Positions 9,632 to 26,797 of a stretch of DNA of 34,665 nucleotides are shown piece by piece; position 1 is the stretch's first letter, and each line of letters starts with the position of its first letter. Origin of the DNA: Dysgonamonadaceae bacterium (GTDB lineage Bacteria; Bacteroidota; Bacteroidia; Bacteroidales; Azobacteroidaceae). The stretch is from NCBI GenBank assembly GCA_031267385.1, contig JAIRZF010000088.1:1-34665 (forward strand), in the 5' to 3' direction. Made by a program: the position numbers and the translations under genes. A model generated the notes under the pieces. That model made no database searches. It saw nothing but the letters and a program-made list of their open reading frames with translations, and had not been told where the DNA came from.

Positions 9632-11398
9632 TTATTCCCAACCGGGATTCTGTCTCCATTTCGCAGCAACAACCTGTTCATTGAGCATCACATTGAGCGG
9701 TATCGGATAAAAATACATTTTCGATTCATCGAAAACTCTGTTTTCCAACACTTCCTTACGATAAGTAAATCCACCGCCTTCTACTGGAGTAACCACCATT
9801 TTATACAACGCACCACCAATAGCTTTAGCGGCTATTTTCCAACGCAGTGCATCCCAATAGCGATGGTCTTCAAAAGAGAGTTCAATCCGGCGTTCATTCC
9901 TGATTTTCTCACGCATTTCATTTTGTGATAAATCGCCTGGAATCGGAGGCATATTTACACCGGATCGGCCGCGAGTCATACTTGCATACCCGGCAATGTC
10001 GGGATTACCCGGATCATATTCATTGAGCGCTTCTGCGTAATTCAAATAAATTTCACCCATCCTGAAAAAAGTCCAGGTATGATAACTGGCTCCATTTGAA
10101 CTGAGATTTAGATTCGGGTCTAACAATTTTCTCAGATAATACCCCGTAGTCGTAGCGTTAGGTTGTCCAGAACCATGCAAACCTCCCTGATAAATCTCTA
10201 ATGTTACAGGATTCGGAGAACCGAATACGCTTCCGTTGTGAAGTACCGTAAGATTCAAGCGGGGGTCCCTGTTTCCATAAGGATTTGCGGCATGTATGGG
10301 ATTATTCCAGTCAAATTTGGAGCCATCCAGCATTTCGAAATCATCCACAAGGTTTTGAGACGGGGTCACATTACCCTGCCCCCGATTGTTTCCTATCGGA
10401 TAATTCAATCTTTCAAATGTATTGCTGCTTCCCGATGGACGATAGACCAGTAATATTTCATTATTGCCGGAACGGTCATACCTTAATCCTATGTACTGAT
10501 AATAATTAGACGCAATGGAATAAGATATGCCGCCAATATTATAATCAATCAATTCTTTCGCCGCATCTGCCGCCGCTTTCCATTTTTCCCTGCGATCACC
10601 CGTAACGGATATCAAACTCAAAATTTCGGGGTCGGAAGTATTCGCCCAATCCGGATCGTTCCACAAGTCACTCGCTGCATACAACAGAAGGCGGCTCTTC
10701 AACGCTAAGGCGGCGCCTCTCTCAACCCTGCTCATTTCGCTTTCCCTGTATACGGGCAATAAACCGTCATTTCCGCCTAAATATTCACATTCGCTTACAA
10801 TAAAATCGATACATTCCTGCAAGGTATTTCGTTTTATCCTGGAATAGTCGGTATTCTTAACAACCGGATCCGTGATAATAGGAACTCCCCCAAAACGCTT
10901 TATCAATTCAAAATAGAAATATGCCCTTAAGAAACGCGCCTCTTTTGGAAAATTTTCCACATCAACAAGCCGTTCCTGGTATTTAATCTGACCTCCTTCT
11001 GAAAGATCCTGCTGCCAATCGCTCAAATCTACTTCAATACTGGAAGCCAAAAAATCATTTACTCTATAGATACCTTGAAAATAGCGGGTCCAGGAACCGT
11101 TATCCGGATTTGTCGCCGCATTCCACGAACCGGTATTGAAACTTTGTGTAGCGCCTTGGTAAGTATGTTTTGCTTCATCGGTAGCCGAAGCCCTCATGCC
11201 GTTGCCAAGTATGGTATAACCCTCTTCGAGCGTTGTGTACAATACATTACACTGATTTCTCCGGTATGTATACTGTCTTTCCAGGTCTTCCTTATCGTAG
11301 GTATTCGAATATTCCCTGTCCAAGTCGGCGCATCCGCCTACCATGAAAATTCCCATTAGCAGGGTCGACACAATTATTATGTTTATTATTCCTTTCAT
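9632..11398 (-). CDS. SusD-like outer-membrane lipoprotein (pair 2)
   Basis: A SusD/RagB-family starch-binding-like lipoprotein that caps the neighbouring SusC porin and delivers glycan to it. I place the start at the ATG at 11398 (588 residues). A longer reading from 11440 would overlap the end of the SusC gene and add MQKFSFNKLNKEKK ahead of an otherwise standard signal sequence. From 11398 the signal peptide is normal and ends in the lipobox VGGC (Cys23). Family features include the TPR-like helical N-terminal half (RFLRAYFYFELIKRFGGVP), a central variable binding region and the C-terminal IRNERRIELSFEDHRYWDAL stretch characteristic of SusD. It starts 22 nt after SusC 2 stops, the usual tight susC-susD arrangement, and is followed after 29 nt by the PKD lipoprotein. 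Confidence 0.94.
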   Translation of the reverse strand: MKGIINIIIVSTLLMGIFMVGGCADLDREYSNTYDKEDLERQYTYRRNQCNVLYTTLEEGYTILGNGMRASATDEAKHTYQGATQSFNTGSWNAATNPDNGSWTRYFQGIYRVNDFLASSIEVDLSDWQQDLSEGGQIKYQERLVDVENFPKEARFLRAYFYFELIKRFGGVPIITDPVVKNTDYSRIKRNTLQECIDFIVSECEYLGGNDGLLPVYRESEMSRVERGAALALKSRLLLYAASDLWNDPDWANTSDPEILSLISVTGDRREKWKAAADAAKELIDYNIGGISYSIASNYYQYIGLRYDRSGNNEILLVYRPSGSSNTFERLNYPIGNNRGQGNVTPSQNLVDDFEMLDGSKFDWNNPIHAANPYGNRDPRLNLTVLHNGSVFGSPNPVTLEIYQGGLHGSGQPNATTTGYYLRKLLDPNLNLSSNGASYHTWTFFRMGEIYLNYAEALNEYDPGNPDIAGYASMTRGRSGVNMPPIPGDLSQNEMREKIRNERRIELSFEDHRYWDALRWKIAAKAIGGALYKMVVTPVEGGGFTYRKEVLENRVFDESKMYFYPIPLNVMLNEQVVAAKWRQNPGWE

Positions 11399-11420
11399 TT
11401 TTTTCTCTTTATTTAGTTTG

Positions 11421-14294
11421 TTAAAACTGAACTTTTGCACCTAAGCTGAATGTCCTAACGGCAGGATATCCTCCTATTGCTTCCGGATCATAATCTTTTA
11501 CCTTATCAATGGAGAAAATATTGCTTCCGTTAACGAATACACGAAGATCGGAAAGCTTTGCAGAGAATATCTTTTTAAAAGTATATCCTATTTCCAGATT
11601 TCTCATTTTTAAGAAATTGCCATTGCACACCCAGAATGTTGAACCTTGATAGTTGTTTTGCTCCTGAGTCAGGGATAAGCGGGGAAATTTTGCATTCGGA
11701 TCGGGATTTTGCTCTGTCCATCTGCCGTCAAGTACATACTTCGACACGCCGCTATTTCCTTGAAACGGTCTGTAATACAAATTACTGAGATAAACGCTTC
11801 TGTTTAGAGCGGCTGCTAAGAATGTGTTAAAATCAAATCCTTTATAAGAAAATCCCAAATTCAGCCCCATGGTTATTTCCGGGATTGCCGTATAACCGAA
11901 AGCGCGTACATCATATTGATCAATAATCTTGTCGCCGTTCTGATCTTTGTATTTAATATCTCCGGGCAATACATTTTTCCATTGAGGTTTAGCTACCTCC
12001 GGATTATCAATTTCTTCCTGCGTATAAAGCCCTGTAGCCTCATAATAAAACGGCTGATCGATCGGATAACCTTCCCTCGCCAGATAGTCGTAAAGCCGTA
12101 CTTCTTCCGACTGATAAACCAGCGTGTTTTTAGCCATCCATGCACTCAGCTGGGCATAATACTTAAAATCTTTATTGTCGCCTCCTTTGTAAGCGATTGA
12201 GGCTTCAAAACCATGATTCTTGGTTTTTCCCAGATTAAGATAAGATGTTGGAATTCCGGCATACGAAGGAATCGTTCGCGCAGGAGTTGCTAATATATCT
12301 TGTCTTCGATTCTCAAAATAATCAAAAGCAACATCCAGACAGCCCAATAAATTCGCATCCAGACCGACATTGAATTTTTTTTCTTTTTCCCAGGTAATAT
12401 CAGGGTTGGTTAGGTAAGTCTGACGCATTCCCGAAGCTTGCGTTGTCGTTTTTCCGAAAAAATAGTTTTCGGCATAATCATAACTCGGCAGATATAAAAA
12501 CCGATAGTTAGCCGTATAACTCTGCAAGCGGTCATTACCTGTTAATCCGTAAGAAGTTCTTACTTTCAGGAACCTTAGAAACCGGTTGTTTTTTAGAAAA
12601 TCTTCTTCGGAAAGTATCCATCCGATAGAAGCGGACGGAAAGTATCCTGTTCTTTTCTCTTTTGCAAAAATTTCAGTTGCTTGTATGCCCAAAGACGCTT
12701 CGGCAATATAACGGCCGTTTAATGTATAATTCAACCGGGAACTGAAGCCTTCATGACGATAATTCTGTAATTGTCCCGGCCGGTGGTTTAGATCGAACGG
12801 ATAGTATTCGTCTTCATAAGTATAAACAGCAACCGCCTCCAAATCATGGACGCCGAATTTCCTGTTGTAATTCAAAAATGCCTGCACAGAAACATTTCGC
12901 CATTCATTGTAAGAGCCTTCATCCACTGTAAGCGTTCCTTTGTTTCCTAATTCTTCTGCAATTTCCGGTTCTCCATCGGCGCCTTCCCGCAAACTTTTAT
13001 ATAAATATTCCTTGCTTTTAATTGTATAACTTGTATGATAACTGTTAAAGCCTATCAATGCAGACGCGCTCAAGCCCCGGGTAATAAAATCCAGTTTCTC
13101 GGTTAATTTTAATGAAGACGTGAGATTACGCAGATTTGAAACCCAATACCCTCTATCGGAAATATTTGCCAAGGGATTCGAATAGGTCGAAGTTCCTCCC
13201 CATGAACCATCCGGATTTTTTACAGGAAAAGCATTCGGAGGGGTTACTTGTACCTGATAAATCACATCACCCGTATTTCTTCCATAAGGATTGAGCTTAT
13301 CTTCAATTACCAATCCGATCGTTGCATGCACCGAAAAATTATTTGACGCCTGAATATCCACATTCGATCGAATATTATATCGCTCAAACGTGGAATTTTC
13401 AGCTGTTTCGGTTAATCCTTTCGTATTCGTTAATAAACCGGCATTGTTCAGATAGTTTAAAAGGACAAAATATTTAACCGTACTTCCGCCACCCTGAAAA
13501 TTCATATTTATATTGTAAACAGGCGACAAATCCCGGATAATTTCCTTGTACCAGTTAACGTTGGGATATAAAGACGGACTATCGCCATTTTTATAATGCT
13601 CCAAAGCTTGTTGACTGTAAAAATCCACATTTGTCTGATTGGTATTCCTGTAGGCTTCATTATATAAAGTCGCATAATTATAAGCATCCAGAAATTCGGG
13701 AATACGGGTGGGCTGTTGAAATCCAATCTGTGCGGAAGCATTTATTTTCAAGGGCGAAATTTTCCCTCGTTTGGTCGTAACCAATAAAACGCCATTCGCC
13801 CCTCTCTGACCGTACACAGAGGTTGCAGAAGCATCTTTCAACAAAGTGACTGACTCTATTTCTTCAGCAGCCAGTTGCGATATTATGGTGCGCCAACCGT
13901 AATCCACCGCTGAACTACCGGAGATATCCCGGTTATGGTAAACAACTCCATCGATTACCAGCAAGGGATCTCTAACACCCATATAAGTTCCGGTACCTCT
14001 TACCCTCAAGGTATTATCGACAATTCCGGGTTCGGCTGAACTTTGTGTAACGGTTAAGCCCGGAAGTCGTCCGTTTAATTTATCAAATAAATTGGGTGTA
14101 AAGGAATGGGGCAACTCATCACCGGAAATAACAGAAACAGCGCTCGTTATTTTATATTCCGGCTGCGAATAATATCCTATCTGTCTTACATTCAGTACTG
14201 TATCTTCCGGAATATTTACTTCCTGAGCTTTAATGGCGGAAAACATACATGACAAGACCATTGACAATATCAAATAATTCTGTTTAAATCTCAT
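11421..14294 (-). CDS. SusC-like TonB-dependent receptor (pair 2), lacking the N-terminal CarboxypepD_reg domain
   Basis: A 957-residue outer-membrane TonB-dependent porin of the SusC/RagA family. After the signal peptide (1-23) it passes through a short stretch (~24-50, a possible degenerate TonB-box region) straight into the plug (~50-170: LFDKLNGRLPGLTV, LRVRGTGTY, PLLVIDGVVY, LLKDASATSVYGQRGANGV). The 22-strand barrel follows and ends in the aromatic residue used for outer-membrane assembly (GAKVQF). Unlike the SusC at 16112-19333, it has no carboxypeptidase-regulatory-like N-terminal extension, which explains its shorter length. It is paired with the SusD at 9632-11398 and follows SusD 1 after 55 nt. 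A second pair suggests uptake of a second or differently branched oligosaccharide. Confidence 0.95.
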   Translation of the reverse strand: MRFKQNYLILSMVLSCMFSAIKAQEVNIPEDTVLNVRQIGYYSQPEYKITSAVSVISGDELPHSFTPNLFDKLNGRLPGLTVTQSSAEPGIVDNTLRVRGTGTYMGVRDPLLVIDGVVYHNRDISGSSAVDYGWRTIISQLAAEEIESVTLLKDASATSVYGQRGANGVLLVTTKRGKISPLKINASAQIGFQQPTRIPEFLDAYNYATLYNEAYRNTNQTNVDFYSQQALEHYKNGDSPSLYPNVNWYKEIIRDLSPVYNINMNFQGGGSTVKYFVLLNYLNNAGLLTNTKGLTETAENSTFERYNIRSNVDIQASNNFSVHATIGLVIEDKLNPYGRNTGDVIYQVQVTPPNAFPVKNPDGSWGGTSTYSNPLANISDRGYWVSNLRNLTSSLKLTEKLDFITRGLSASALIGFNSYHTSYTIKSKEYLYKSLREGADGEPEIAEELGNKGTLTVDEGSYNEWRNVSVQAFLNYNRKFGVHDLEAVAVYTYEDEYYPFDLNHRPGQLQNYRHEGFSSRLNYTLNGRYIAEASLGIQATEIFAKEKRTGYFPSASIGWILSEEDFLKNNRFLRFLKVRTSYGLTGNDRLQSYTANYRFLYLPSYDYAENYFFGKTTTQASGMRQTYLTNPDITWEKEKKFNVGLDANLLGCLDVAFDYFENRRQDILATPARTIPSYAGIPTSYLNLGKTKNHGFEASIAYKGGDNKDFKYYAQLSAWMAKNTLVYQSEEVRLYDYLAREGYPIDQPFYYEATGLYTQEEIDNPEVAKPQWKNVLPGDIKYKDQNGDKIIDQYDVRAFGYTAIPEITMGLNLGFSYKGFDFNTFLAAALNRSVYLSNLYYRPFQGNSGVSKYVLDGRWTEQNPDPNAKFPRLSLTQEQNNYQGSTFWVCNGNFLKMRNLEIGYTFKKIFSAKLSDLRVFVNGSNIFSIDKVKDYDPEAIGGYPAVRTFSLGAKVQF

Positions 14295-14349
14295 GATTTT
14301 TATTATTATAATTTCACATGTTATTTACTAACTTTGTCATACAACATCC

Positions 14350-16101
14350 TTAATATCCCGGATTTTGTATTATATATCCTTTGTTAACTTCATTCTGAAG
14401 GAATGGAAGTCTATACATCTTTCTGTTGTAAGTTCTGGTTGTAGCAGTATACACCACATAACTTACTTCAGAACCGCTTTTAGTGAGTTTAAATCCCAGC
14501 ATATCGCCGGTCATTACGCCATCTTCTTCGGCTATCATCCAACGCTGAATATCCCACAATCGGTGACCTTCATTACAAAATTCAACGGCCCTTTCATTCC
14601 TCACTTTTTCCCGGAATTGCTCTTTGGTGAGATTTTCAGGTAATGAAGCTACTCCGGCGCGATTTTTGACAAGATTAATATATTTATAAGCATCAGCAGG
14701 AGGGGTATCGTAATATTCATTCAAAGCCTCCGCATACATCAGATAGAGATCAGCTAAGCGGAACAGGATTCCTTTGGGTATTATTCCCGGGGAAGAGGAG
14801 GAGGTAAGCGCATAAGGATAGGGTTTATGTATAATCAAACCTGTTTCGTTATTTTGATTGCCTCCGGCACAATCCAGTGCGGGATATTCTTGTGTCCAAT
14901 AAGAACCATGATAAGAAACCGTTTGGTGGAAACGAGGCTCCAACTCTTTGATTTTTTTCATGAAATCATTTCCCGATCTTTCCCAATCCTGAGGATTTCC
15001 ATCTGCTTTGGAATATTTCTGTAAAAAATTAAACGTCATATAATATCCGCCTGATCCGCCAAGCAGAGGCGAGCAGGAAAAGTTCCATGGAGCATGCCCA
15101 AATCTACGATTTATATAAGGCTGATCAGCAAGAATAACCTCTTCATTATCTACTGTTTCCCACACATACCGGTACGGAATTTCTTTTGTTTCGTTATTCT
15201 CAATAACTGTTTTATTTCTTACCAACGCTATTCCGTTTCCTTCGGCTGCATCTATTGTTTCTTTAGCTGCATCAGCGGCTTGTTTCCACCTATCCTTGCG
15301 GTATTCTCCAAAAATGATTAATTGGTTATTTTCGCCAAAGGGTAGATAAGGCGTTGCCGTATTAAATAAGGGACTTGCCGCATACAACATCAGTTTGGCT
15401 TTTAAATGCATGGCTGCAACGTTGCTGAGCCGTCCTCTGCGATTATCGGGTATATCGCGGGGATTGGGAAGTAAAGCGATAGCCGCCTCGCAATCTTCCA
15501 GTATAAAATCATACGTTTCCTGCAATGTAGCGCGTGGAATTAAAAGGTCGTCGCTCGATAACAACCTCTTTTTCACCAATGGAACCCCGCCATACATTTT
15601 GAAAAGATCAAAATATTGCATAGCCCTGATCATAAACGCTTCTCCTTTCGATGTTTTTTTCAACTCATCGGCATAAGCCGGTGAAACATCATCGAACTGA
15701 GCGTCATCGATACGTTCCAGTATAATGTTACACCTGCGTATAGCTCCCCAATAGGTAGACCATCTTGGGTCGCCGGTATTGCGATTACTTGTTGGGTTCA
15801 TATTAGCAGTATTCCATACAAGCATATTGTAATACCAGGTATAAGTGTTATTTATGGATTCATCTGTGGAGGTGGATGTACTGCAATCGAATTTTGCCCG
15901 TGCATCGAAATAAGGGAGATCGCTCATTACTCCCCACCAATAAGTACCATACACAAAATATTCAAACTGCTTCGCACTTGAAAAAATCGTATCTTCCGTT
16001 ACATCTACTCCGGGAGGCTTTTCAAGAAAATTATCACACGAAGAATTAGTTAATATTACGAATATGAATACAATGAATATATAATATATTACGTTTTTCA
16101 T
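14350..16101 (-). CDS. SusD-like outer-membrane lipoprotein (pair 1)
   Basis: A 583-residue SusD/RagB-family lipoprotein. The signal peptide ends in a lipobox at Cys22 (NSSCDNFLEKPP), and the CDNFLEKPP-type start of the mature protein is very common in SusD homologues. The N-terminal half contains the TPR-type helices (FMIRAMQYFDLFKMYGGVP). The C-terminal part has the conserved RLADLYLMYAEALNEY and VRNERAVEFCNEGHRLWDIQ segments. It starts 10 nt after the upstream SusC stop, so the two are clearly translated as a pair. The central binding region differs greatly from the other SusD of the locus, consistent with a different ligand or a different part of the same glycan. Confidence 0.95.
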   Translation of the reverse strand: MKNVIYYIFIVFIFVILTNSSCDNFLEKPPGVDVTEDTIFSSAKQFEYFVYGTYWWGVMSDLPYFDARAKFDCSTSTSTDESINNTYTWYYNMLVWNTANMNPTSNRNTGDPRWSTYWGAIRRCNIILERIDDAQFDDVSPAYADELKKTSKGEAFMIRAMQYFDLFKMYGGVPLVKKRLLSSDDLLIPRATLQETYDFILEDCEAAIALLPNPRDIPDNRRGRLSNVAAMHLKAKLMLYAASPLFNTATPYLPFGENNQLIIFGEYRKDRWKQAADAAKETIDAAEGNGIALVRNKTVIENNETKEIPYRYVWETVDNEEVILADQPYINRRFGHAPWNFSCSPLLGGSGGYYMTFNFLQKYSKADGNPQDWERSGNDFMKKIKELEPRFHQTVSYHGSYWTQEYPALDCAGGNQNNETGLIIHKPYPYALTSSSSPGIIPKGILFRLADLYLMYAEALNEYYDTPPADAYKYINLVKNRAGVASLPENLTKEQFREKVRNERAVEFCNEGHRLWDIQRWMIAEEDGVMTGDMLGFKLTKSGSEVSYVVYTATTRTYNRKMYRLPFLQNEVNKGYIIQNPGY

Positions 16102-16111
16102 TTCTCTTGTT

Positions 16112-19100
16112 TTAAAAATTAATATTGATTCCTGTATTAAAAGTTCTTACAACCGGATATTCCGTTGAAGTCCCGGAAGGCATTTCAGGGTCGATACCTT
16201 TCCATAAACTACTAAAAGTAAGCAAATTGGTGCCATTCAAATAAATCCTGGCAGATTGCAATCCTAATTTTCTCAGAAAAGCGCCCGATAGCGTGTATCC
16301 AATTTCAGCATTTTTTAATCGGATATATTTCACATCCTTAATCCAAAGAGTAGAACTCTGGTAATTATGATCCAGATTCCCTGAAGCAGACGGACGCGGT
16401 AATTCTATCCTATCGCCGTTGGCATATCTTTCATACGTCCAGCTCCAATCCTTTACAAAGTCGATTGTCGATCCGTCTTGCTGAAATCCCCGTCGATAAC
16501 TTGTAGGTAATTCATAAGAACTGTTTGAAGAACCTTGCAGTAAAATCGAGAAATCAAAGCCTTTGATATCTCCTCCCAGCGAAAAGCCATAAGATATTTC
16601 AGGGAAAGGGGTATAACCTATTGGCGCCATATCATCCTGATTGATAATTCCATCTCCGTTAATATCCCTGTATTTCACATCTCCCGGCTGGAGGTTATTT
16701 CCATTCCAAATGGATTCGGGACGGTTAACGTCATTTACTTCCTCCCATGTATTGTAGAAACCTTCGGCAACCAATCCAAAGTATTGTTGATGCGGTAGCC
16801 CTGTCCATATCTGGTAGTCATATTGTCGCGGTATTTCTTCCCGGTACAAAACTTTATTTCTTGCAAATGTAAAGATACCTTTTAGCCAATAAGTCAGCGA
16901 ATGGACTTTATCCCGGTAGCTGATTTCCCCATCCACTCCGCTATTTTGCATCCGGCCTAAATTATAAGCGGGAAAGTTAGCCCCGACTATATTAGGAATG
17001 ATTGACCTGCTGGTTAAAATATCAGTACGTCTTTCATAAAAGTAATCTGCAGTAAGTTTCAATTTATCGTTAAAGAACTGAACGTCAATACCAATATCCA
17101 TTTTTCTCGCTCTTTCCCAGGTAAGATCAGGATTACCCAAAGCGCCTTCACTGGCCACTTTTTCCATCTGTTGCACACTTCCCGGAATGGTACCGAACAC
17201 ATAAGAAGGCAGGTAAGCATTATAATCCAAACCTTGTGGATTTTCAACGATATATCGTGTTGGCAGGTACATAAACCTTTCTCCTCCAATCTTATCGTTT
17301 CCTACTTCGCCGTAAGAGCCTCTGATTTTAAAAAATGATATTACGTCTTTGGAGAAAAATTGTTCTTCGGATAAAACCCAGCCTGCTGAAAATGCGGGGA
17401 AAAAACCGAAACGTTTCCCTTTGGCAAAATTTTCCGATCCGTTGTATCCCATATCAAATTCCGTAAGATATTTGTTGTTATAAGAATATATTAGCCTTCC
17501 GACAAGTCCCTGATTCGAAAATGGAATCTTATAATTCAAATCGGCCGAAGGATTGTACAATTTCGTCTGATTGTATAATACCAAAGCGCTTACATTATGC
17601 AGGTTGAATTGGCGGGAATAGTTTATTCCCCATTCCATGTATGTCCGCCTCCTTTTCGCATTATCGGCAATTCCCAATGTATGAACATTTCCATCGTCCC
17701 CTTCGCTGGCCGGAACAATTAAAGGAATGGGGTTATCCGGATCGTTCGGATCTCTTTCGGCTTTCCATTCCTTTACTTCCCGCGTAATTCTTTTCCGGGA
17801 GAAAGTGTAATTCTGATAAGACATTAAGCCATGAACAACAAGCCCCTTGGTAAGCAACCGGCTCAAGTCATAGGATGCTTTTACGGACGTCTGAAGATGG
17901 TTGTTATAATCTTTTAATAATCCGTTACGTGGACTGAAATTAGTCAAAGGCGGATTAGCCACTAAAGAGTACCGTCCCAACACATTCTGAACAATCTTTC
18001 CTTCATACATGCCGGGGCCGGATACAGGAGGATGAGCATAGGCATTACCGAATATGTTTGTAGCGTTATATTGCGGATGATTCCTAAAATCCATCTGATT
18101 GGAGAATTGCACCGCCATCTTCAAATCATTTGTAACATCAAAATCGAAGTTTGTGCGGAAATTGTAACGCTCATATTTTACCTGCGTATCAATTTCCGCT
18201 TTCCCTCCGGATTCATATTTCGTGTGATTATATAAGCCTCCTTGCGTAAAAGCGCCAAGCGAAACAAAATATCTTACGTCCTTAGTCCCTCCCGACACAT
18301 TGACATTATGTTGCGTTTGTATACTCTGTTCCTTAAACATCATATCTACCCAGTCACTGTTGGGGTAAAATACGGGGTCTGAACCATCCAGAAACTTTTG
18401 AACCTCTGCGTCGGTATAGGCTGGAATATAAGCGCTACCTAAGGTATAAGCATCATACTGTTTAGCTTCATTAAAACTTCTTGCATAATCATACGAATTC
18501 ATATTCTCCCTCATATTTGTAAAAGAAGAAACTGCAGCATTAGAAGAGAAGCTTACTTTCGGTTTTGATATATTTCCTCTCTTGGTAGTGATTAATATCA
18601 CGCCATTGGCTCCTCTGACCCCATATACGGCCGTAGCGGAAGCATCTTTCAATATGGCAATGTTATTTATTTCATTGGCGTCGATATTGTTCCAGTTATC
18701 CACTTCAATACCATCTACCATTACCAGCGGATTCTGCAGTTCGCTATCATATCCGGCGGCATAAGTCCCAATCCCCCGAATACGAATAGTGGATTCGTCC
18801 ATTCCCGGTTCACCGCTTTTTTGTACAGCAGTAAGACCCGGCAAACGTCCGACTAAAGCATTGCTTACATTTGCTTGTGGAGATTGGAGCAACTGCTTGG
18901 AATCTACCGAGGCGATAGCTCCTGTTACAGTCGCTTTTTTCTGGGTGCCATAAGCAATCACACTAACTTCCTCCAAAGAGATATCCATTGATTCCAAAGT
19001 GATATTGATCATACTTCTTTCACCAATAGCTTCTACTTTAGTTTTCGTTCCCAGGTAGGAAATTTCCAATGATACGGCATTAGCCGGAATATCAAGTGCA

Positions 19101-19333
19101 TATTTGCCGTTTACATCGGTTACTGTTCCAATGTTTGTTTTTGCTACTTTCACCGTAGCGCCGATTATTGGCTCTCCACTGACCTCGCTGACTGTACCGG
19201 TTACTCTCTGTGCAGGATTCTGCGTTTTTTCAGCATAAACATTCAATGGAATAATTACCGTTGCAAATATTATCAGTAAGAACATTATCTTACTTCTTGC
19301 CCCGAATAAACAGATTTTTTTGTCATTTTGCAT
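16112..19333 (-). CDS. SusC-like TonB-dependent receptor (pair 1)
   Basis: A 1073-residue SusC/RagA-family outer-membrane porin that imports oligosaccharides using TonB energy. Order: signal peptide (1-~35, ending ...NVYA), CarboxypepD_reg-like domain (~43-115: VTGTVSEVSGEPIIGATV, GTVTDVNGKYALDI), TonB-box region (EEVSVIAYG), plug domain (~130-260 with IRIRGIGTY, PLVMVDGIEV, ILKDASATAVYGVRGANGV), then the beta-barrel ending in Phe (GININF). Every hallmark is intact. It begins 48 nt after the GH78-type gene and overlaps nothing. A 7-bp inverted repeat lies in that gap. It forms the complete canonical susC-susD pair with the next gene, 10 nt away. Confidence 0.97.
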   Translation of the reverse strand: MQNDKKICLFGARSKIMFLLIIFATVIIPLNVYAEKTQNPAQRVTGTVSEVSGEPIIGATVKVAKTNIGTVTDVNGKYALDIPANAVSLEISYLGTKTKVEAIGERSMINITLESMDISLEEVSVIAYGTQKKATVTGAIASVDSKQLLQSPQANVSNALVGRLPGLTAVQKSGEPGMDESTIRIRGIGTYAAGYDSELQNPLVMVDGIEVDNWNNIDANEINNIAILKDASATAVYGVRGANGVILITTKRGNISKPKVSFSSNAAVSSFTNMRENMNSYDYARSFNEAKQYDAYTLGSAYIPAYTDAEVQKFLDGSDPVFYPNSDWVDMMFKEQSIQTQHNVNVSGGTKDVRYFVSLGAFTQGGLYNHTKYESGGKAEIDTQVKYERYNFRTNFDFDVTNDLKMAVQFSNQMDFRNHPQYNATNIFGNAYAHPPVSGPGMYEGKIVQNVLGRYSLVANPPLTNFSPRNGLLKDYNNHLQTSVKASYDLSRLLTKGLVVHGLMSYQNYTFSRKRITREVKEWKAERDPNDPDNPIPLIVPASEGDDGNVHTLGIADNAKRRRTYMEWGINYSRQFNLHNVSALVLYNQTKLYNPSADLNYKIPFSNQGLVGRLIYSYNNKYLTEFDMGYNGSENFAKGKRFGFFPAFSAGWVLSEEQFFSKDVISFFKIRGSYGEVGNDKIGGERFMYLPTRYIVENPQGLDYNAYLPSYVFGTIPGSVQQMEKVASEGALGNPDLTWERARKMDIGIDVQFFNDKLKLTADYFYERRTDILTSRSIIPNIVGANFPAYNLGRMQNSGVDGEISYRDKVHSLTYWLKGIFTFARNKVLYREEIPRQYDYQIWTGLPHQQYFGLVAEGFYNTWEEVNDVNRPESIWNGNNLQPGDVKYRDINGDGIINQDDMAPIGYTPFPEISYGFSLGGDIKGFDFSILLQGSSNSSYELPTSYRRGFQQDGSTIDFVKDWSWTYERYANGDRIELPRPSASGNLDHNYQSSTLWIKDVKYIRLKNAEIGYTLSGAFLRKLGLQSARIYLNGTNLLTFSSLWKGIDPEMPSGTSTEYPVVRTFNTGININF

Positions 19334-19360: not shown

Positions 19361-19383
19361 AACTATTGACTTAAATAATAGTT
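19361..19383. repeat. 7-bp inverted repeat between GH78-type gene and susC 1
   Basis: AACTATT (19361-19367) and AATAGTT (19377-19383) are perfect inverted copies separated by 9 nt. The right arm overlaps the stop codon of the GH78-type gene and the hairpin precedes susC by 27 nt. It is AT-only apart from one C/G pair and has no following T-tract on the minus strand, so it is unlikely to be an efficient terminator. It could be an mRNA stem-loop setting different expression of the susCD genes, or a chance palindrome in AT-rich DNA. Confidence 0.4.
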
Positions 19384-21646
19384 ATTGGACTGTTATCTTG
19401 TATTCGCCTCCATCCAAATGATACAAGGTATAGTTATCGCTTTTTCCTTCGGATAATAGTGATTTACCATTTGCCGTTACCTTTTTGTATTTCGAGGGAA
19501 GATAAATAACCGCGCTACTATTTTCAGGAACCATTAACTCCATATTCATACCCGATCTGTTTTTTACAATTTTTACAGATATGTTGCCCGCCACCGTTTC
19601 ATTTCCGGTTTCCACATATTCCAGGTTTCCCATTTGAGGTTTTACCATGAACTTCCGCCATGCAGGTTCTAAAGGAGCTAATCCGCATACATATTGGGAA
19701 AGGATGGTTAATCCTCCTCCACTCCAGGCATGATTATTTGTTCCAAAATCAGGCATGGTATCACCAAAGTGTTCATATAAAGTTGTAAAGGGAGATTCGT
19801 TAACTACCTTATCATAGCGTTTTTTCATCCGTTCCAGTCCAAACTTATCCTCTCCCATGATAAACAGCGCTTCCAACACGTATTTTTCCATATAAGCGCT
19901 TGCTAAATAAGATGTTTTTAAGACGTCAAGTATTCTTTGGTATTTATCCCTGCCGGCTAAGCCGGAAACTACGGCTAATGCTTGTGCGCGGTCATCGTAG
20001 CTTCCTTCATATTCTTTGGTTCGATATCCTTTGCCATCCCAGAATACGCGATTGAAAGCCGTCTTGAAAGCGTCCATTTCTTTCAGAATTTTATCCGCTT
20101 CATCCTTTTCATTCAAAAGTTCCGACATGTAGTAAAATCCTTTGAGGGCAATATAATACCAGGCATTATACAGCAATTGTTTATCAATCTTTATTCCCCA
20201 GTCGCCCCAATACCAGCCGCCGTAACGTTCTACCAATGTTCCGTCGGCTTTTAACTTCCAGACATCCAAATAACGCTTAACTCCGTCATACACTTTTTCA
20301 ATGGTTTCTTTATCTCCCGTATTCAGGTAATAATTCCAAAAGCCGTAGTACCCGACAGCGGCAAGCATTTGTCCGGGCAATTCTCTATTCCAGTTTCCTT
20401 CCGGTATTGGAGAATAGATCGTACCGTCCTTTCGTTGCCAGTTAATCAATTCCAGCATCCCTTTCTTGGTAATATCCGCAGACGAAGGACTTAGCGCATA
20501 AAAAGATTCGCCGCTTTCATTGACAATATCACCCCACCATTGTGCGCGTTCCCTGTCGGGACAATCCATATAGGTATCACGCATGGTAACATACAGTGTA
20601 CGGGTAGCCATTTGCCATAATTTGCTATAGAAACCGTCGTTACAATTGAAATGACCTGTAAATTCACAATTATAACCGGTTTCCCTGTATTTCAGGGATT
20701 TGATCTTAACGCCTTCGGGAATCAGATATTTTACAATATGACCGTTCATCCAACCCAAAGATTCATAATATTGCCGCCCTTTTTTAGTCACATACTCCGC
20801 TCTGACCGAGGCGACATTCAATCCCATATAATCAAAATTATCGGTTTGAATTTTGATGGTCAGGTTCTCAGGCGCTTCAATATCAAGAACAGGAGTAATG
20901 TGACAATTATATGGTAATTGGCATACAATCCAATTGCCGGAGCCTTCCGCCGGAATTTCTGCGGCGTTTTCATATTCGCGAATACCATAATCTTTAAAAA
21001 GAGGTATCGGTCTTTTCACCAAGCGATTCCATGGCGCTGACTCGGCGTCTCCGATGATACCGGCCGGCCTGAATCCTTTGAGTTCCGTTTCCGGTTTTAT
21101 CCAGTCAAAATCATCGGTTTGGGCATTGAACCTGATATTAGATTCAGAAAGGCGGTAGTTGGGATTTTCCCAGTTGGTCTTTTCAAAAGCCCTGTTTAAT
21201 TTAGACGTCCATCCGGTGTCGCTGATTAAATTCAATGCATCGCATTGGAAAGCCAAACCTGCTTGTCCGCTACTGTTATGTGAAAAACCATCTTTCCCGA
21301 AGTACCAAACTAAAATAGCAATGGTATTTTTTCCTTTTCTCAGAAAAGGAGCAATCTCTACTTCGTCATAATAAGTATCATCCGGCGTCGGGCCTCTTTT
21401 CAACAGTCCTTCAAACACGGCCAATTCTCCATTTATCCACATCCAGTACTTTGAGTCACAGGCGATTTTAGTCAAGGCTGTTTGAGGCAAAGCGCTTACT
21501 TCTATCTCCTTTCTGAAATTCATCCATGTGTTCGACTCATTCTGAGATTCTTCATGCGTAATCCTTTTCGCTTTCCACGTTTCGCTTTGTGCAAAAACCG
21601 GTAAGCAGATAAAAAAATAACAGATAATAATTGTAACCTTTTTCAT
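19382..21646 (-). CDS. GH78-type alpha-L-rhamnosidase-like enzyme
   Basis: A 754-residue secreted enzyme (signal peptide 1-19) of the GH78 type. The N-terminus contains beta-sandwich domains (~25-345), the first resembling rhamnosidase N-terminal lectin-like modules (KYWMWINGE). An (alpha/alpha)6 barrel (~350-660) and a C-terminal beta domain (~665-754) follow. The catalytic loop is DCPDRERAQWWGD with Asp361, Glu366 and Asp373. The +5/+12 spacing equals that of Asp567/Glu572/Asp579 in Bacillus rhamnosidase B as I remember it. The candidate general base is Glu625 in TTLYEHFGD. The intervening residues differ from the common DCPQRDERLGWTGD form, so the sugar specificity may not be L-rhamnose. 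It follows the serine hydrolase fusion by 23 nt. Confidence 0.85.
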   Translation of the reverse strand: MKKVTIIICYFFICLPVFAQSETWKAKRITHEESQNESNTWMNFRKEIEVSALPQTALTKIACDSKYWMWINGELAVFEGLLKRGPTPDDTYYDEVEIAPFLRKGKNTIAILVWYFGKDGFSHNSSGQAGLAFQCDALNLISDTGWTSKLNRAFEKTNWENPNYRLSESNIRFNAQTDDFDWIKPETELKGFRPAGIIGDAESAPWNRLVKRPIPLFKDYGIREYENAAEIPAEGSGNWIVCQLPYNCHITPVLDIEAPENLTIKIQTDNFDYMGLNVASVRAEYVTKKGRQYYESLGWMNGHIVKYLIPEGVKIKSLKYRETGYNCEFTGHFNCNDGFYSKLWQMATRTLYVTMRDTYMDCPDRERAQWWGDIVNESGESFYALSPSSADITKKGMLELINWQRKDGTIYSPIPEGNWNRELPGQMLAAVGYYGFWNYYLNTGDKETIEKVYDGVKRYLDVWKLKADGTLVERYGGWYWGDWGIKIDKQLLYNAWYYIALKGFYYMSELLNEKDEADKILKEMDAFKTAFNRVFWDGKGYRTKEYEGSYDDRAQALAVVSGLAGRDKYQRILDVLKTSYLASAYMEKYVLEALFIMGEDKFGLERMKKRYDKVVNESPFTTLYEHFGDTMPDFGTNNHAWSGGGLTILSQYVCGLAPLEPAWRKFMVKPQMGNLEYVETGNETVAGNISVKIVKNRSGMNMELMVPENSSAVIYLPSKYKKVTANGKSLLSEGKSDNYTLYHLDGGEYKITVQ

Positions 21647-21669: not shown

Positions 21670-24600
21670 CTAAGGTAGTTTATTGAATCCTTCCTGTTTC
21701 ACAACCCATTGCCCGTTTCCCGGAAATCCGGGAGCATTGCCTTCCGATCCGTCCCAACCGGCTGCCATCATAGCCACTGCCGTCAGTAATCCCCCATTGG
21801 AAGGAAAATAGGGGAACGGTCCGCCGGTAGCTAATCCATGTTCATCAAACTGAAATCCTTTGGATTCATGCAATAACATATCTATCGCTATTTCCCGGTT
21901 TCCAGTACGGGCAGCTGCCATGGCAACCATCGGGAAATCCCATCCCCATGTGCGGTTGAAATCCCAAACAGTAAATACTTTATTAAGCGTAGCATTGAAA
22001 ATACCTAAATTAACGCCATCTCCCGGAAGCATTCCATATATCCCCGTAAGCCCGGGATGCTCCCACGTATATTCCGTCCACATATTGGGGATACCTTCAT
22101 AAGTAACATATACTCCTTTTTCAACCGGCAGTGAAGACAATTTTTCCAAAACATCGTCCCATTTATCTTCCCTGGGCAATAATAGCCGTTCTTTCCATGT
22201 TTGAGCCACTCGCAATCCGAATTTCCAATAACTAAGTTCATAAGCCGGATTTACCGTGATCTTGGGATTTGTATTTTCCGATACAATGAAAACCGGCGGG
22301 CCAAGTACATAACGGTCGGTTTTCTCATCGTAAAAAGCAAAATCGGCCATAAATTCGGCAGTTTCAAATACAATCTCTTTCCATTTATCAAGAGTAGCCT
22401 GAACGGGATGTAAGCGGTAATCCAATTCGGCAAAATAAATCGGATGTGGCTGTTGCCATATCAATGTGGCATGAATAGGATGCGGCCAGTCGCGATCGAA
22501 ACCGGCAGTACATTTAGGCCACCGTGCTCCTTTATAACCTTGTTTTTTGGCTCTTTCAACGGAAGTCGGTAAAAAATCGGAATATACATGCAGGCTTTTG
22601 TCAACTAATGCCCACCGGTTCCAAAGAGCGTAATGGACGCCATGCCACCAAATCATTTCGAAATGGAATCGTCCGTACCAACCGTTATTCACAAGTCCGC
22701 TTTCCTGGGGCGGCCAATTACCGGCTTCGTTGGCTTTCATCAGGTATTGTGAGAGCGCTATTCTTCTTTCCAACTCTTTCCACCGGACGTCTTTACTTTC
22801 GGACAAATCAATTGCAGCGCCTGATTCCCAGTATTTTTTCCATTCATTAACAGAAGATTCTAAACATTCGTCCAATGTCAAAGGGGATACTTTCTCCGAT
22901 TTCCGAGTAAATTCGAAAACAAATTCCAATTTTTTGTTTTTGCCGGGAACCAGACGGAAAAAATGAGGTTTTTCAGCCGGCGACAACTTAGCTTTCGATT
23001 TCCAGCTAATTGAAACTCCATATAAAACATCATCCATTATTCGTTCGAGAAAGGCAGATTGTTTACCGGAATAAAGTAGTTTGGATGCAGAGGCGTCCGG
23101 ATAATCATAGCGACTGTTAACCTGCTCGGATTTGTCGGGATAAGGGAATGAAAATTCAACCTCAAGTTGTCCGTTTTCAAATAAGGGTGACTCTACTTCA
23201 ACAGCGATAGCATTGCGATCGCCATGACAAATTGTTTTAACAATTACCGGTATTTGATCCAGTTCGAATCGACTTGTAAGCGTTCCTGTCCATAAATCCA
23301 GTTCTTGTCTTGTATTCTTCAGATCGCTTAGCAAGGCTACTTCACCATTTTTCTTTTTCAGTACAAAGCCTGCACGTCCCAGATTAAACCGATGAGGATT
23401 TCCAGCCAACCAAGCGGATAATTCAGGCTGTTCTTCATTTCCTATCCAATATTGCACCGGTCGCCCGTGTGTGTCCCATACCTGCCCGTTGAAATCTTCG
23501 ATTCTTAATCCTTCGGGCAACGGAAAACTATGCCAACTCCAATGCGACAGGGTATAATGCGGCCGAAAGGTTTGAAGTCCTGTGATATCGGCTCCGAATG
23601 CAAACGATCCATTGCCAACCTGCGCCGGACTCTGCGGGTTATCAACTGTAGTAATAAGCTTGTGACGGTCAATAACCGCTTTCCGGTCTATTTTTCCCGA
23701 GCCGGAAGTACTTTCGACAAGTCCGTATTGTTTTTCTATCTCTTGCCAAAAAATCCGGAATGCTTCTTTATATTTCGGAATATCCTGCTGCAAAATAAAA
23801 AACATCGCCACTAATCCGTTTTTATAAATTCTTGATTCTGTGCCGTAAGCGCCACCGTGTCCCATCCATTTGTCCGACAAAGCCCATCCTAACCCCCATC
23901 GACCTTCCACTTTTTCACCTGTTTGGTCTTTTCCTATTTCAAGAACCGATGCTTCGCTCAAATACCTTTTCCCCTCAAATTCACCTTTATTCGCAATCAT
24001 CCGGTAGAATTTCACCAAGTCAACCGGCGAAGAAAAAAGGCCTCCGGCTGCCTCGGCAAAACGTTTTGTCTTATCTTCTAACGGATACTGCAACTGTCCG
24101 ATGGTTGTTTCAACTAATTCCCCATTTTCACCGAGTTTATAGGGAATAACCAATTTATCCAATTGTTTTCCTGCCGGCCAAAATGTGGTATTCTTCATAC
24201 CGAGAGGATCAAATAATCTTTTTTGAAGGAAATCGGCATAAGACATTCCCGAAACCCGTTCGACAACGGTGGCTGCAATGTTTATTCCTTGATTGGAATA
24301 AATGATTTTCTCGCCGGGTTCGGCAACAAAAGGGGTCATAGCCGTTGCATAAAGGCTGATATTAAAAGGCAGTACATCTATTTTACCCATTTGATTCTGT
24401 ATGCCTGCAACCCATTTCATTCCACTGGTATGCGTAAGAAGACGTCTCAACGTGACCGGTTGGGAAGCCAATTCTATTACCTGCCATTCTTTGCGGTTGA
24501 TGCGGCTTACTTGCATGTCTTTCAGTTCAGGAAGATAGGTAGTTATCGGCTCATCGAGGTCTAATTTTCCTTCTTCAACCAACATCATAACGGCAACCCC

Positions 24601-24849
24601 GGCAAAAGGCTTGCTTTGGGATGCAATCCAGAAAATGGAATTGGAATCCATTTTTTTGTTTTTCCCGATGTTTTGATACCCCAGACATTCGACGCCAAGT
24701 ACTTTATCCGGCGTAGCGACAACAGTCACAATACCGGGCAATTCACCCGAATCAATAAAAGGCTGCAACAATTCACCGGTATTTTGTGAAAAAACAGGCG
24801 AATACATCATTACTAAGAATAGAATAAATAAAAGTCTACTATTTTTCAT
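21670..24849 (-). CDS. Fusion: beta-lactamase-type serine hydrolase + six-hairpin (alpha/alpha)6 glycosidase-like module
   Basis: A 1059-residue secreted two-module protein (signal peptide 1-21). Module 1 (~25-365) is a class C beta-lactamase/penicillin-binding-protein-like serine hydrolase with Ser77-x-x-Lys80 (SQSK), Tyr184-Ser-Asn186 and HGG at 331-333, in the correct order. This family includes esterases and D-amino-acid hydrolases. After an SGSGK linker (~375-385) comes module 2 (~390-1059), with a GH65/GH95-like layout. It has an N-terminal beta-sandwich (VGNGSFAFGADITGLQTF) and a helical barrel with a conserved aromatic/acidic stretch, GRFHFEMIWWHGVHYALWNR. Module 2 resembles stand-alone, functionally unassigned six-hairpin glycosidases. 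The single uninterrupted frame and interleaved signatures argue for a true fusion. One possibility is coupled de-esterification and glycan cleavage. The 1-nt gap to the upstream gene implies translational coupling. Confidence 0.85.
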   Translation of the reverse strand: MKNSRLLFILFLVMMYSPVFSQNTGELLQPFIDSGELPGIVTVVATPDKVLGVECLGYQNIGKNKKMDSNSIFWIASQSKPFAGVAVMMLVEEGKLDLDEPITTYLPELKDMQVSRINRKEWQVIELASQPVTLRRLLTHTSGMKWVAGIQNQMGKIDVLPFNISLYATAMTPFVAEPGEKIIYSNQGINIAATVVERVSGMSYADFLQKRLFDPLGMKNTTFWPAGKQLDKLVIPYKLGENGELVETTIGQLQYPLEDKTKRFAEAAGGLFSSPVDLVKFYRMIANKGEFEGKRYLSEASVLEIGKDQTGEKVEGRWGLGWALSDKWMGHGGAYGTESRIYKNGLVAMFFILQQDIPKYKEAFRIFWQEIEKQYGLVESTSGSGKIDRKAVIDRHKLITTVDNPQSPAQVGNGSFAFGADITGLQTFRPHYTLSHWSWHSFPLPEGLRIEDFNGQVWDTHGRPVQYWIGNEEQPELSAWLAGNPHRFNLGRAGFVLKKKNGEVALLSDLKNTRQELDLWTGTLTSRFELDQIPVIVKTICHGDRNAIAVEVESPLFENGQLEVEFSFPYPDKSEQVNSRYDYPDASASKLLYSGKQSAFLERIMDDVLYGVSISWKSKAKLSPAEKPHFFRLVPGKNKKLEFVFEFTRKSEKVSPLTLDECLESSVNEWKKYWESGAAIDLSESKDVRWKELERRIALSQYLMKANEAGNWPPQESGLVNNGWYGRFHFEMIWWHGVHYALWNRWALVDKSLHVYSDFLPTSVERAKKQGYKGARWPKCTAGFDRDWPHPIHATLIWQQPHPIYFAELDYRLHPVQATLDKWKEIVFETAEFMADFAFYDEKTDRYVLGPPVFIVSENTNPKITVNPAYELSYWKFGLRVAQTWKERLLLPREDKWDDVLEKLSSLPVEKGVYVTYEGIPNMWTEYTWEHPGLTGIYGMLPGDGVNLGIFNATLNKVFTVWDFNRTWGWDFPMVAMAAARTGNREIAIDMLLHESKGFQFDEHGLATGGPFPYFPSNGGLLTAVAMMAAGWDGSEGNAPGFPGNGQWVVKQEGFNKLP

Positions 24850-24850
24850 T

Positions 24851-26797
24851 TCATTTTTTTTGATTTGATGGAGATAACACCGGTTCCATTAACCAGGCTA
24901 AATTAAACCGGTAATAAAACTGGCTTGAAACAATATGGATCATATTATCAGGAGTTTGCGTTCCAGAAAGATATCCTCCGAATGGCGAGGTATAAGGATC
25001 TGAAGCTTTTATAGGAATTAATTTCCGATGTACCCAAGTCTTGCCTTCGTCAAACGATAGCGCCGAGAATAAACCGTAAATTTGCTGAACCCGCCCGTTT
25101 TTGTCAATCACTTCAATTCCTTTTTGGGTTTTATCAGCATAGCTGGCGCCCAAATCGGTAAACGACGTCAGAAGAAGCGGGCCTTCATTTAATCGTTTTA
25201 TAATGGAGCGCTGCCATGAACCAATGGGAGGAAACGGACTGGCTTCGTAAGTCCAACTCTTCCCTTTGTCGTTAGAGATACTGAACGGGGAATGTCCATT
25301 TATATCGCTATACCGCCCCAATGCAAGAAAATTGCCATCTTTTAATTCCACAAAAGAAGCATGAATTCCGGCAATCCAGCCTGAAACGCCATCGGTTTTA
25401 GCAAATTGCTCTTTATTCCATTCATAACGGGTAATCTCTTCCCAGGAATCGCCCGAATCATTGGACGCAAATAGGATGGTGCCATTATGAACATCTGTGG
25501 GAAAAGCCAAACGTCCATCGCTTAGTTTTACCATATCAACCTGCGCCCAAAAGGGCGCAGAAGTAAATCGTTCATTAACTATCACAGGTTCGCTCCATGT
25601 AACGCCATTGTCCTTACTAACCCGTTTGGTGACAGAGAAATTATAACATTTTTCCGGCAGGCTGATTGAATTATAATGATGAAGTTCCCCATTCGAATCA
25701 TGCCATAAAACCGCGCTGTTTACACTATGATCAGGCGCTATGAAAAACAATGCCGGAGGATCCCATTGATTGGCGCCATCGCGTAATCTCGACGTCAAAA
25801 CAGCAATCTGGGTTAAATGATCGTCAGCTGCAGTAAATGCGGTAGCTAAAATATCTCCGTTGTCGCACCATGTAATACATGGAACATGATGTCTTCCCCA
25901 GTAAGGGACGTTACCCGGTATTGCATCCGCACGGATAAAATCCATTGCATCATGAAAAACAGGTTTATCTTTCGGTACAAGTTTCCATTTTTTCTTTGTC
26001 TGTTTTACATTTTGGAACACTTTCCCCGGTTTTTGCGCTTCATAAAAACCATTTGCAGGGAAAGGAGCCTGTACAACCCGAAAACTCAGGGTTGTAAATC
26101 GATCGCCCCGGACTGTTCCCCAACGGTTGGTCGCCCGTTCACTTCCACGAATAACTTTAACATAACCCGATTTAGGCCCTGTTGGATTTGTAAGTTCTTT
26201 ACCGGGATAAATATCCCACCAATCATAACACCATTCTGTAATTTCATTATCAGTATCCTGTAATCCCAGCAATTCTGCTTGCTTTGCTGCATATTCCCAT
26301 TCAGCTTCCGTCGGGAGGCGATAAGGTTTTCCTTCTTTTTGGGTCAGCCATTCACAAAATGCAACAGCATCATCCCAGGTAACCATTACTACCGGATCTA
26401 AATCGCCGGAAGGCGCTTCATGATATCCGCGATACGATTTATGTTTCGGATCAAATTCTTCATACAATGCATTAACTACCTTCTTTGATGATATTTGAAA
26501 CGAATAATCAATTCTTACTTCATGAACAGGCGCTTCGTCCCAGTCGGGTCCGGTATGTTCCACCAACCGGTTGAAACAATCAAGATTTGGTTGAGCCCCC
26601 ATCTTAAATGATCCGGGACTAACAGATACCAACGATATTCCGGATTTGTTTTCTGCCTCTAAAACGTGCTTTTCCACACGCTTCTTTCCAACTGCCATCT
26701 CTCCCGAAAAAAGGAGCAAACTACTTCCCAATAAGAAATAACAGATATCTTTCCGAAGTTTTTTTCCGATGATTTTCATATTTTTTTGTATTTCCAT
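24851..26797 (-). CDS. Fusion: FGE-sulfatase-like domain (no catalytic cysteines) + Asp-box sialidase-like propeller
   Basis: A 648-residue protein. A basic N-terminus and hydrophobic stretch (18-31) form a signal sequence; the in-frame Met7 (26779) is an alternative start. Residues ~52-245 are a formylglycine-generating-enzyme-sulfatase (SUMF1)-like domain: GSFKMG at 62-67, PVVMVTWDDAVAFCEWL at 135-151, RLPTEAEWEYAA at 160-171, TEWCYDWW at 187-194, IRGS at 216-219 and FRVV at 239-242. The usual ~40-50 residues between EWEYAA and the GLYDM-like segment are missing. No Cys lies between 217 and 242, where real FGEs carry their active-site pair. Residues ~285-640 are a BNR_2-type propeller with Asp-boxes SKDNGVTW, SNDSGDSW, SNDKGKSW and SFDEGKTW. 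The FGE-like part may be a binding or structural module. Propeller activity is unassigned. Confidence 0.85.
   Translation of the reverse strand: MEIQKNMKIIGKKLRKDICYFLLGSSLLLFSGEMAVGKKRVEKHVLEAENKSGISLVSVSPGSFKMGAQPNLDCFNRLVEHTGPDWDEAPVHEVRIDYSFQISSKKVVNALYEEFDPKHKSYRGYHEAPSGDLDPVVMVTWDDAVAFCEWLTQKEGKPYRLPTEAEWEYAAKQAELLGLQDTDNEITEWCYDWWDIYPGKELTNPTGPKSGYVKVIRGSERATNRWGTVRGDRFTTLSFRVVQAPFPANGFYEAQKPGKVFQNVKQTKKKWKLVPKDKPVFHDAMDFIRADAIPGNVPYWGRHHVPCITWCDNGDILATAFTAADDHLTQIAVLTSRLRDGANQWDPPALFFIAPDHSVNSAVLWHDSNGELHHYNSISLPEKCYNFSVTKRVSKDNGVTWSEPVIVNERFTSAPFWAQVDMVKLSDGRLAFPTDVHNGTILFASNDSGDSWEEITRYEWNKEQFAKTDGVSGWIAGIHASFVELKDGNFLALGRYSDINGHSPFSISNDKGKSWTYEASPFPPIGSWQRSIIKRLNEGPLLLTSFTDLGASYADKTQKGIEVIDKNGRVQQIYGLFSALSFDEGKTWVHRKLIPIKASDPYTSPFGGYLSGTQTPDNMIHIVSSQFYYRFNLAWLMEPVLSPSNQKK

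Follow-up and report, generated by a model that had tools for sequence, protein, structure and literature searches.

Multicatalytic enzymes of polysaccharide utilization loci (PULs) and fusions of GH3 with S12 hydrolases are already known. BeCE15A-Rex8A (PMC8417218) and fused acetyl-feruloyl esterases (PMC7110780) are secreted Bacteroidota proteins in which an esterase is combined with a glycosidase or with a second esterase, and RmNag3, a GH3 enzyme with a beta-lactamase domain (PMC6987092), carries a PF00144-type module and a glycosidase in one chain. Here we describe a gene from a gut-type member of the Bacteroidales, a Dysgonamonadaceae bacterium (assembly GCA_031267385.1, contig JAIRZF010000088.1, positions 1 to 34,665; this stretch of 34,665 nucleotides, analysed as a whole, is the window below) whose product joins an S12 serine hydrolase (N-module) to a GH65-like glycosidase module (C-module). 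RmNag3 differs from it in having another glycosidase, in carrying S12 at the C-terminus and in its chitin/peptidoglycan context, whereas BeCE15A-Rex8A and the acetyl-feruloyl esterases have other folds on both sides and act on xylan, not on rhamnose-containing glycans. Our literature search found no S12-GH65-like fusion, and the pair of folds is new as far as our searches and the literature covered show.

Each module also has its own described relatives. FjGH65A (7fe3; PMC8626586), of clan GH-L, shares with the C-module an N-terminal beta-sandwich, a linker, an (alpha/alpha)6 barrel and the register of the acid Glu, but the C-module is 15% identical to it, matches no Pfam GH65 model, has Phe-Glu in place of W343-D344, does not clearly conserve Glu616 and is fused to S12. 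GH95 and GH139 (alpha-L-fucosidase and rhamnogalacturonan II 2-O-methyl-fucosidase) have the same two-domain fold and are likewise PUL enzymes acting on plant glycans, although their identity to the C-module is 13-15% and their Z scores are clearly below that of GH65. The N-module shares the SxxK and Tyr motifs and overall similarity with family VIII esterases such as EstU1, from which it differs in motif III and in its link to PUL genes. We consider it slightly better than an even bet (about 0.55) that the fusion protein is a bifunctional PUL enzyme, an exported de-acylase and inverting exo-glycosidase acting on a rhamnose-containing, pectin-like glycan.

Two modules and their predicted active sites

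The fusion gene is one open reading frame of 1059 codons with an ATG start and no internal stop; the plus strand across the same interval has many stops and no comparable frame. Residues 1-21 are the only signal-peptide-like segment of the whole protein. An earlier note on this DNA had proposed a secreted protein with two catalytic modules, and our comparisons agree with this in predicting an esterase-like S12 module followed by a glycosidase-like one. Searched separately against Pfam and structures, as that note had advised, the N-module belongs to PF00144 and the C-module combines a GH65-type fold with the absence of any Pfam match.

PF00144 matches residues 27-343 of the N-module (E 7.9e-56, 190 bits against a cut-off of 27). 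The three motifs proposed earlier, SxxK at 77-80 (here SQSK), YSN at 184-186 and HGG at 331-333, were all found at those positions, and the six aligned relatives have SQSK or SQTK as motif I, YSN as motif II and HGG, HAG or HSG as motif III. The class C beta-lactamase label given earlier holds for the fold only: the S12 fold, SxxK and YxN stand, but H-G-G replaces the K-T-G of class C enzymes, and the NCBIfam class C model scores 51 bits on the N-module, below its threshold of 415. The W-x-G motif III of family VIII esterases (PMC6995599) is also absent from the N-module. Among solved structures, the closest sequences are 7uda/7u1b (E 2e-34), then EstU1 (4ivi, E 4e-28) and the esterase 7pp3; the nearest solved relatives are esterases or unnamed S12 proteins, closer than the beta-lactamases. 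We treat the assignment of 7uda/7u1b to the Caulobacter esterase EstG as a lead only. A cyclic glucose hexamer has been reported as the substrate of EstG (PMC11389396). NCBIfam gave weak matches to D-aminopeptidase and to PBP4B/AmpH-type proteins. Close relatives of the N-module are rare, with 70% identity in one Parabacteroides acidifaciens-like genome and 51-56% in a handful of other Bacteroidales, and the S12 paralogues of the window genome itself are weak (28-33%).

The C-module matches no Pfam family even at E 5, so that it was rejected as a member of Pfam GH65, and it has no NCBIfam match. Its AlphaFold model, built on a 71-sequence alignment, reaches pLDDT 95 and pTM 0.94, and the best structural match is the GH65 alpha-1,2-glucosidase FjGH65A (7fe3; Z 38.5, root-mean-square deviation 2.9 over 585 residues). 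GH65 phosphorylases are also among the nearest folds, and GH95 (7kmq) and GH139 (9hyq) follow with Z 27.4 and 27.3. The earlier note had described a module of about 670 residues with an (alpha/alpha)6 fold; the glycosidase-type fold is borne out, but the module is not a barrel alone, since a beta-sandwich precedes it, and this two-domain fold, common to GH65, GH95 and GH139, is unspecific. A profile search with the C-module matched kojibiose phosphorylase (E 9.4e-7), a single-sequence PDB search gave one chance match, and the alignment of its profile to Bacteroidales GH65 by hhalign was collinear over the full length but weak (probability 7%, E 0.0048). The C-module is best placed near GH65 rather than inside it.

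This family is large: of 593 places in the genome collection that matched the pattern, 582 encode a C-module relative. The best 80 relatives, of 42-67% identity, come from Bacteroidota, Verrucomicrobiota, Planctomycetota, Acidobacteriota, Actinomycetota and others, and most of them consist of this module alone after a short N-terminal extension, which resembles a signal peptide in the sequences read. A few (L069, L079, L080, L081 and L083) have 95-244 extra N-terminal residues, and a domain scan of two of these extensions (L069 and L080) found no enzyme domain. Plasmid copies of the C-module carry only the annotation "hypothetical protein".

Within the C-module, E858 is invariant across the 71 alignment rows and stands in register with the GPDE/ADE of 3wiq and 7fe3 in HMMER alignments, although the weak hhalign run shifts this stretch. 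The catalytic general acid of FjGH65A is Glu472 (PMC8626586), and we propose E858 as the general acid of the C-module. D971, in a WGWD motif, is also invariant in the alignment; in the weak profile-profile alignment it adjoins the phosphate-site Ser-Ser columns of GH65, which are occupied in the C-module by Gly-Trp. We infer that D971 is the likely general base. H729, E731, H736 and many other residues are invariant over the same 71 diverse sequences.

The junction and recurrent fusions of both modules

The sequence across the junction reads ...EKQYGL-VESTSGSG-KIDRKAVIDRH..., so that the Ser/Gly linker proposed earlier is present in frame, as STSGSG at residues 380-385 within the uninterrupted reading frame; residues 378-384 have a pLDDT below 50 in the full-length model. 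Six N-module relatives put the end of the module at L377: five are stand-alone proteins that stop there or at most two residues away, and one (L126) continues into GH127. The C-module relatives, for their part, begin at the same KIDRK after a signal peptide. No in-frame ATG, GTG or TTG lies near the junction, and two overlapping genes or an internal start were rejected on this ground.

Could assembly or mutation have produced the fusion as an artefact, by bringing together in this one contig two genes that are neighbours or unrelated? The exact S12 and C-module pair is missing from 48 genomes of the family, 393 of the order and 395 of the phylum, as well as from the 80 top-ranking loci in the genome collection, and the window genome is a fragmented, metagenome-type assembly (332 contigs, 86.75% complete). 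The earlier note had named uniqueness to this contig as a finding that would tell against the fusion, and the exact pair was indeed found only here. However, both modules are complete and meet at their natural boundaries, the second signal peptide is gone with eight residues in its place, and the two sides of the junction are alike in third-position G+C (0.40 and 0.39) and in codon usage (r 0.90). No second copy of the C-module was found in the window genome, which leaves only the weak S12 paralogues for recombination, and junctions of this type are also seen in further species, where the partners are different. An artefact is therefore highly improbable in our view. Each half is also found alone elsewhere, and the junction runs from a natural end to a mature start; these points make a real fusion likelier than an error of assembly.

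Our count of C-module fusions found the exact pair once, beside SusC/SusD genes, and other partners elsewhere. The C-module is fused in frame to GH43 and GH43_C2 in genome G040, with an orthologue in G041; to GH28 and GH88 in one protein of 1602 residues in G431 (L130 3853-8658); and, in G307 (L108 643-3477), to a GDSL-type acylhydrolase, a second, unrelated esterase-type partner. A GH78 and C-module fusion in G011 (L127 1866-5849) has an in-frame TAG and lacks a stretch of the C-module relative to our query, and is either a broken gene or an assembly error. A tree of 98 C-modules requires 5 state changes to account for the six fused ones, and well-supported branches force at least 4 of these. 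Because fused and unfused C-modules are interleaved on this tree, separate fusion origins are the simplest reading, with losses possible. Fused C-modules make up 4/10 in the window's family and 2/62 elsewhere in the phylum sample (Fisher p 0.003, or p 0.013 when two orthologous fusions among the four are counted once, with genomes unweighted for relatedness).

The N-module shows a similar tendency. A relative (52-55%) is fused to GH127 in the related genome G011 (L126 6827-9964), beside GH20 and SusD genes. In P. acidifaciens (G151, L123) four genes share one strand in the order SusC, SusD, divergent C-family member (37%), S12 gene of 69% identity, and this order independently supports a functional connection between the S12 and C-families. 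That the two folds normally occur as separate proteins, as the earlier note had it, is true of this exact pair but not of S12-glycosidase fusions generally: besides RmNag3, there is a GH3 and S12 fusion elsewhere in the window's own genome (L003 1-2145), and frames of about 1000 residues containing S12 are common in its bacterial family.

The surrounding locus

The window is a PUL with two SusC and two SusD genes, a hybrid two-component regulator, GH97, GH78, a GH28-like end, BNR proteins and a GH110-like protein (Table 1). Two predicted catalytic modules thus lie in one secreted chain beside SusC/SusD, the arrangement by which a candidate multicatalytic PUL enzyme is recognized. The start codon of the fusion gene is 1 base from the upstream gene, which makes the fusion gene part of a dense operon. 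A defence-system role was rejected, as PADLOC gave no match.

Table 1. The fusion gene, its parts and its neighbours, by position in the window
Feature	Position	Strand	Basis
Fusion gene, S12 serine hydrolase and GH65-like glycosidase module, 1059 residues	21670..24849	-	open reading frame, Pfam, fold match
Signal-peptide-like N-terminus, residues 1-21, MKNSRLLFILFLVMMYSPVFS	24787..24849	-	sequence reading
N-module, PF00144 / S12 serine hydrolase, residues 25-377	23719..24777	-	PF00144 match and ends of stand-alone orthologues
Motif I, S77-Q-S-K80, predicted nucleophile Ser77	24610..24621	-	motif position, conservation in relatives
Motif II, Y184-S-N (184-186)	24292..24300	-	motif position, conservation in relatives
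Motif III, H331-G-G (331-333), replacing K-T-G	23851..23859	-	motif position, alignment of relatives
Linker VESTSGSG, residues 378-385	23695..23718	-	sequence; low pLDDT
C-module, GH65-like glycosidase family without Pfam model, residues 386-1059	21673..23694	-	homologues, model, fold match
C-module beta-sandwich, about residues 398-648	22906..23658	-	DSSP of model
C-module (alpha/alpha)6 barrel, about residues 659-1030	21760..22875	-	DSSP of model and PDB matches
E858, proposed catalytic general acid (FjGH65A Glu472)	22276..22278	-	invariance, alignment to 3wiq/7fe3
D971 of WGWD motif, proposed general base	21937..21939	-	invariance; weak profile-profile alignment; inference
Two SusC and two SusD genes	9632..19333	-	family models for both SusD and the first SusC; 11421-14294 by Plug domain
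GH78-type alpha-L-rhamnosidase, downstream neighbour	19382..21646	-	Pfam
FGE-sulfatase domain and BNR repeats in one 648-residue protein, upstream neighbour	24851..26797	-	open reading frame, Pfam

Homologues of the downstream GH78 occur near C-module genes in three loci by synteny (L014, L018 and L039), and S12 relatives adjoin GH78 in two (L136 and L138). Elsewhere the C-module adjoins GH106 and GH127 (L007), a GH78-GH43 fusion (L017), or GH28 and the L-rhamnose isomerase RhaA (L125), and other C-module genes neighbour GH92, GH31, GH29, GH3 or division genes. The scanned flanks were chosen, and these neighbours are examples, not rates. Their variety indicates that the family is not limited to a single substrate. 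A stand-alone C-module gene of P. acidifaciens (L124 7325-9436) lies beside FtsA, FtsZ, Mur ligase and CstA genes and not in a PUL.

Other genes of the window deserve mention. The upstream FGE-sulfatase (formylglycine-enzyme-like)/BNR protein has a relative in genome G055 (L165/L166) that spans both parts in one frame. Further upstream on the minus strand, 26834-29845 encodes a secreted-type protein of 1003 residues, an orphan PUL protein that matched nothing in Pfam or among PDB sequences and lacked relatives in 94 genomes of the order, and 29849-32278 encodes an 809-residue protein with only a weak GH20b/GH67N-like N-terminal domain.

Proposed function and its alternatives

Our proposal is that the fusion protein works in the periplasm or at the outer membrane as a multicatalytic PUL enzyme, whose single N-terminal signal peptide would export the entire chain. 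Judging by its motifs and the nearest solved esterases, the S12 module would act by an acyl-enzyme route through Ser77, activated by Lys80 and Tyr184, and would strip an ester-linked substituent such as acetyl. The GH65-like module, on the strength of its fold, invariant residues and alignment, would then take an alpha-linked sugar off the de-acylated non-reducing end with inversion, E858 being the acid and D971 the likely base. Partners and neighbours point to a target that is either a pectic glycan with rhamnose, of the rhamnogalacturonan type, or another plant glycan like it, and that may be imported via the neighbouring SusCD pairs. The presence of S12 and GDSL, two unrelated esterase-type folds, on the same C-module family fits the idea that a decoration is removed and the glycan then cleaved. 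As to origin, the junction strongly suggests that two separate secreted enzymes were joined, the first losing its stop codon and the second its signal peptide.

Several observations weigh against this proposal. The exact pair is known from one fragmented metagenome-type assembly only, and the full-length model has a pTM of 0.67, with the N-module poorly modelled (7 sequences) and the relative orientation of the modules not fixed. The S12 family also includes peptidases and amidases, so that ester cleavage is not certain. In the C-module no clear Glu stands in the column aligned to the GH65 hydrolase base Glu616, and the GH65 -1 subsite residues W343-D344 align to F730-E731 (in one alignment, E 0.00053), which suggests that the released sugar may differ from glucose. 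Many C-module genes, including one at C74 of P. acidifaciens, lie outside pectin loci or outside any PUL, and the C-family gene beside S12 in that species is a divergent rather than the closest member.

The S12 module could instead be a peptidase or amidase that trims, for example, peptide or N-acyl groups, the whole protein working on a glycoprotein or cell-wall-type glycan and not on pectin. S12 does include the D-aminopeptidases and PBP4B/AmpH-type proteins seen as weak matches, GH3-S12 fusions have been linked with the turnover of peptidoglycan (PMC6987092), and the BNR, FGE-sulfatase and GH110-like proteins are untypical for a simple pectin locus. This is nevertheless unlikely, as the nearest solved relatives of the N-module are esterases and both modules have plant-glycan enzymes as fusion partners and as neighbours, with rhamnosidases recurring among them. 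Similar doubts can be raised about the C-module, which might be a phosphorylase, or a carbohydrate-binding or scaffold remnant, and not a hydrolase, given the phosphorylases among its nearest folds and the unclear conservation of Glu616. Secretion speaks against a phosphorylase, which would bring no phosphate economy outside the cytoplasm. The Gly-Trp in the columns of the phosphate-binding Ser-Ser, although seen in a weak alignment, argues in the same direction, and the invariance of E858, D971, H729, E731, H736 and many other residues speaks for a live active site and not a remnant. We regard both versions as quite improbable and continue to favor a de-acylase joined to a hydrolase.

A bolder extension, which we offer tentatively and would not back at even odds, is that the C-module founds a new GH family neighbouring GH65, which is common across Bacteroidota and also occurs in Acidobacteriota, Verrucomicrobiota, Planctomycetota and Actinomycetota. 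Its members would be specific for a sugar of acylated rhamnogalacturonan-type glycans, and the repeated independent fusions, to two unrelated esterase folds and to rhamnosidase, GH43 and GH28-GH88 modules, would show that de-acylation or trimming of the substrate has to take place at one and the same site.

In our view the more valuable outcome is this uncharacterised GH65-like family together with its set of fusion partners: a large, widespread and well-folded family without a Pfam model, tied by fusion and neighbourhood to pectin and rhamnose enzymes. The lineage of the window fuses its PUL enzymes unusually often. The independent fusions are a direct lead to the substrate of the C-module, and those with S12 and GDSL suggest that acyl groups block its target.

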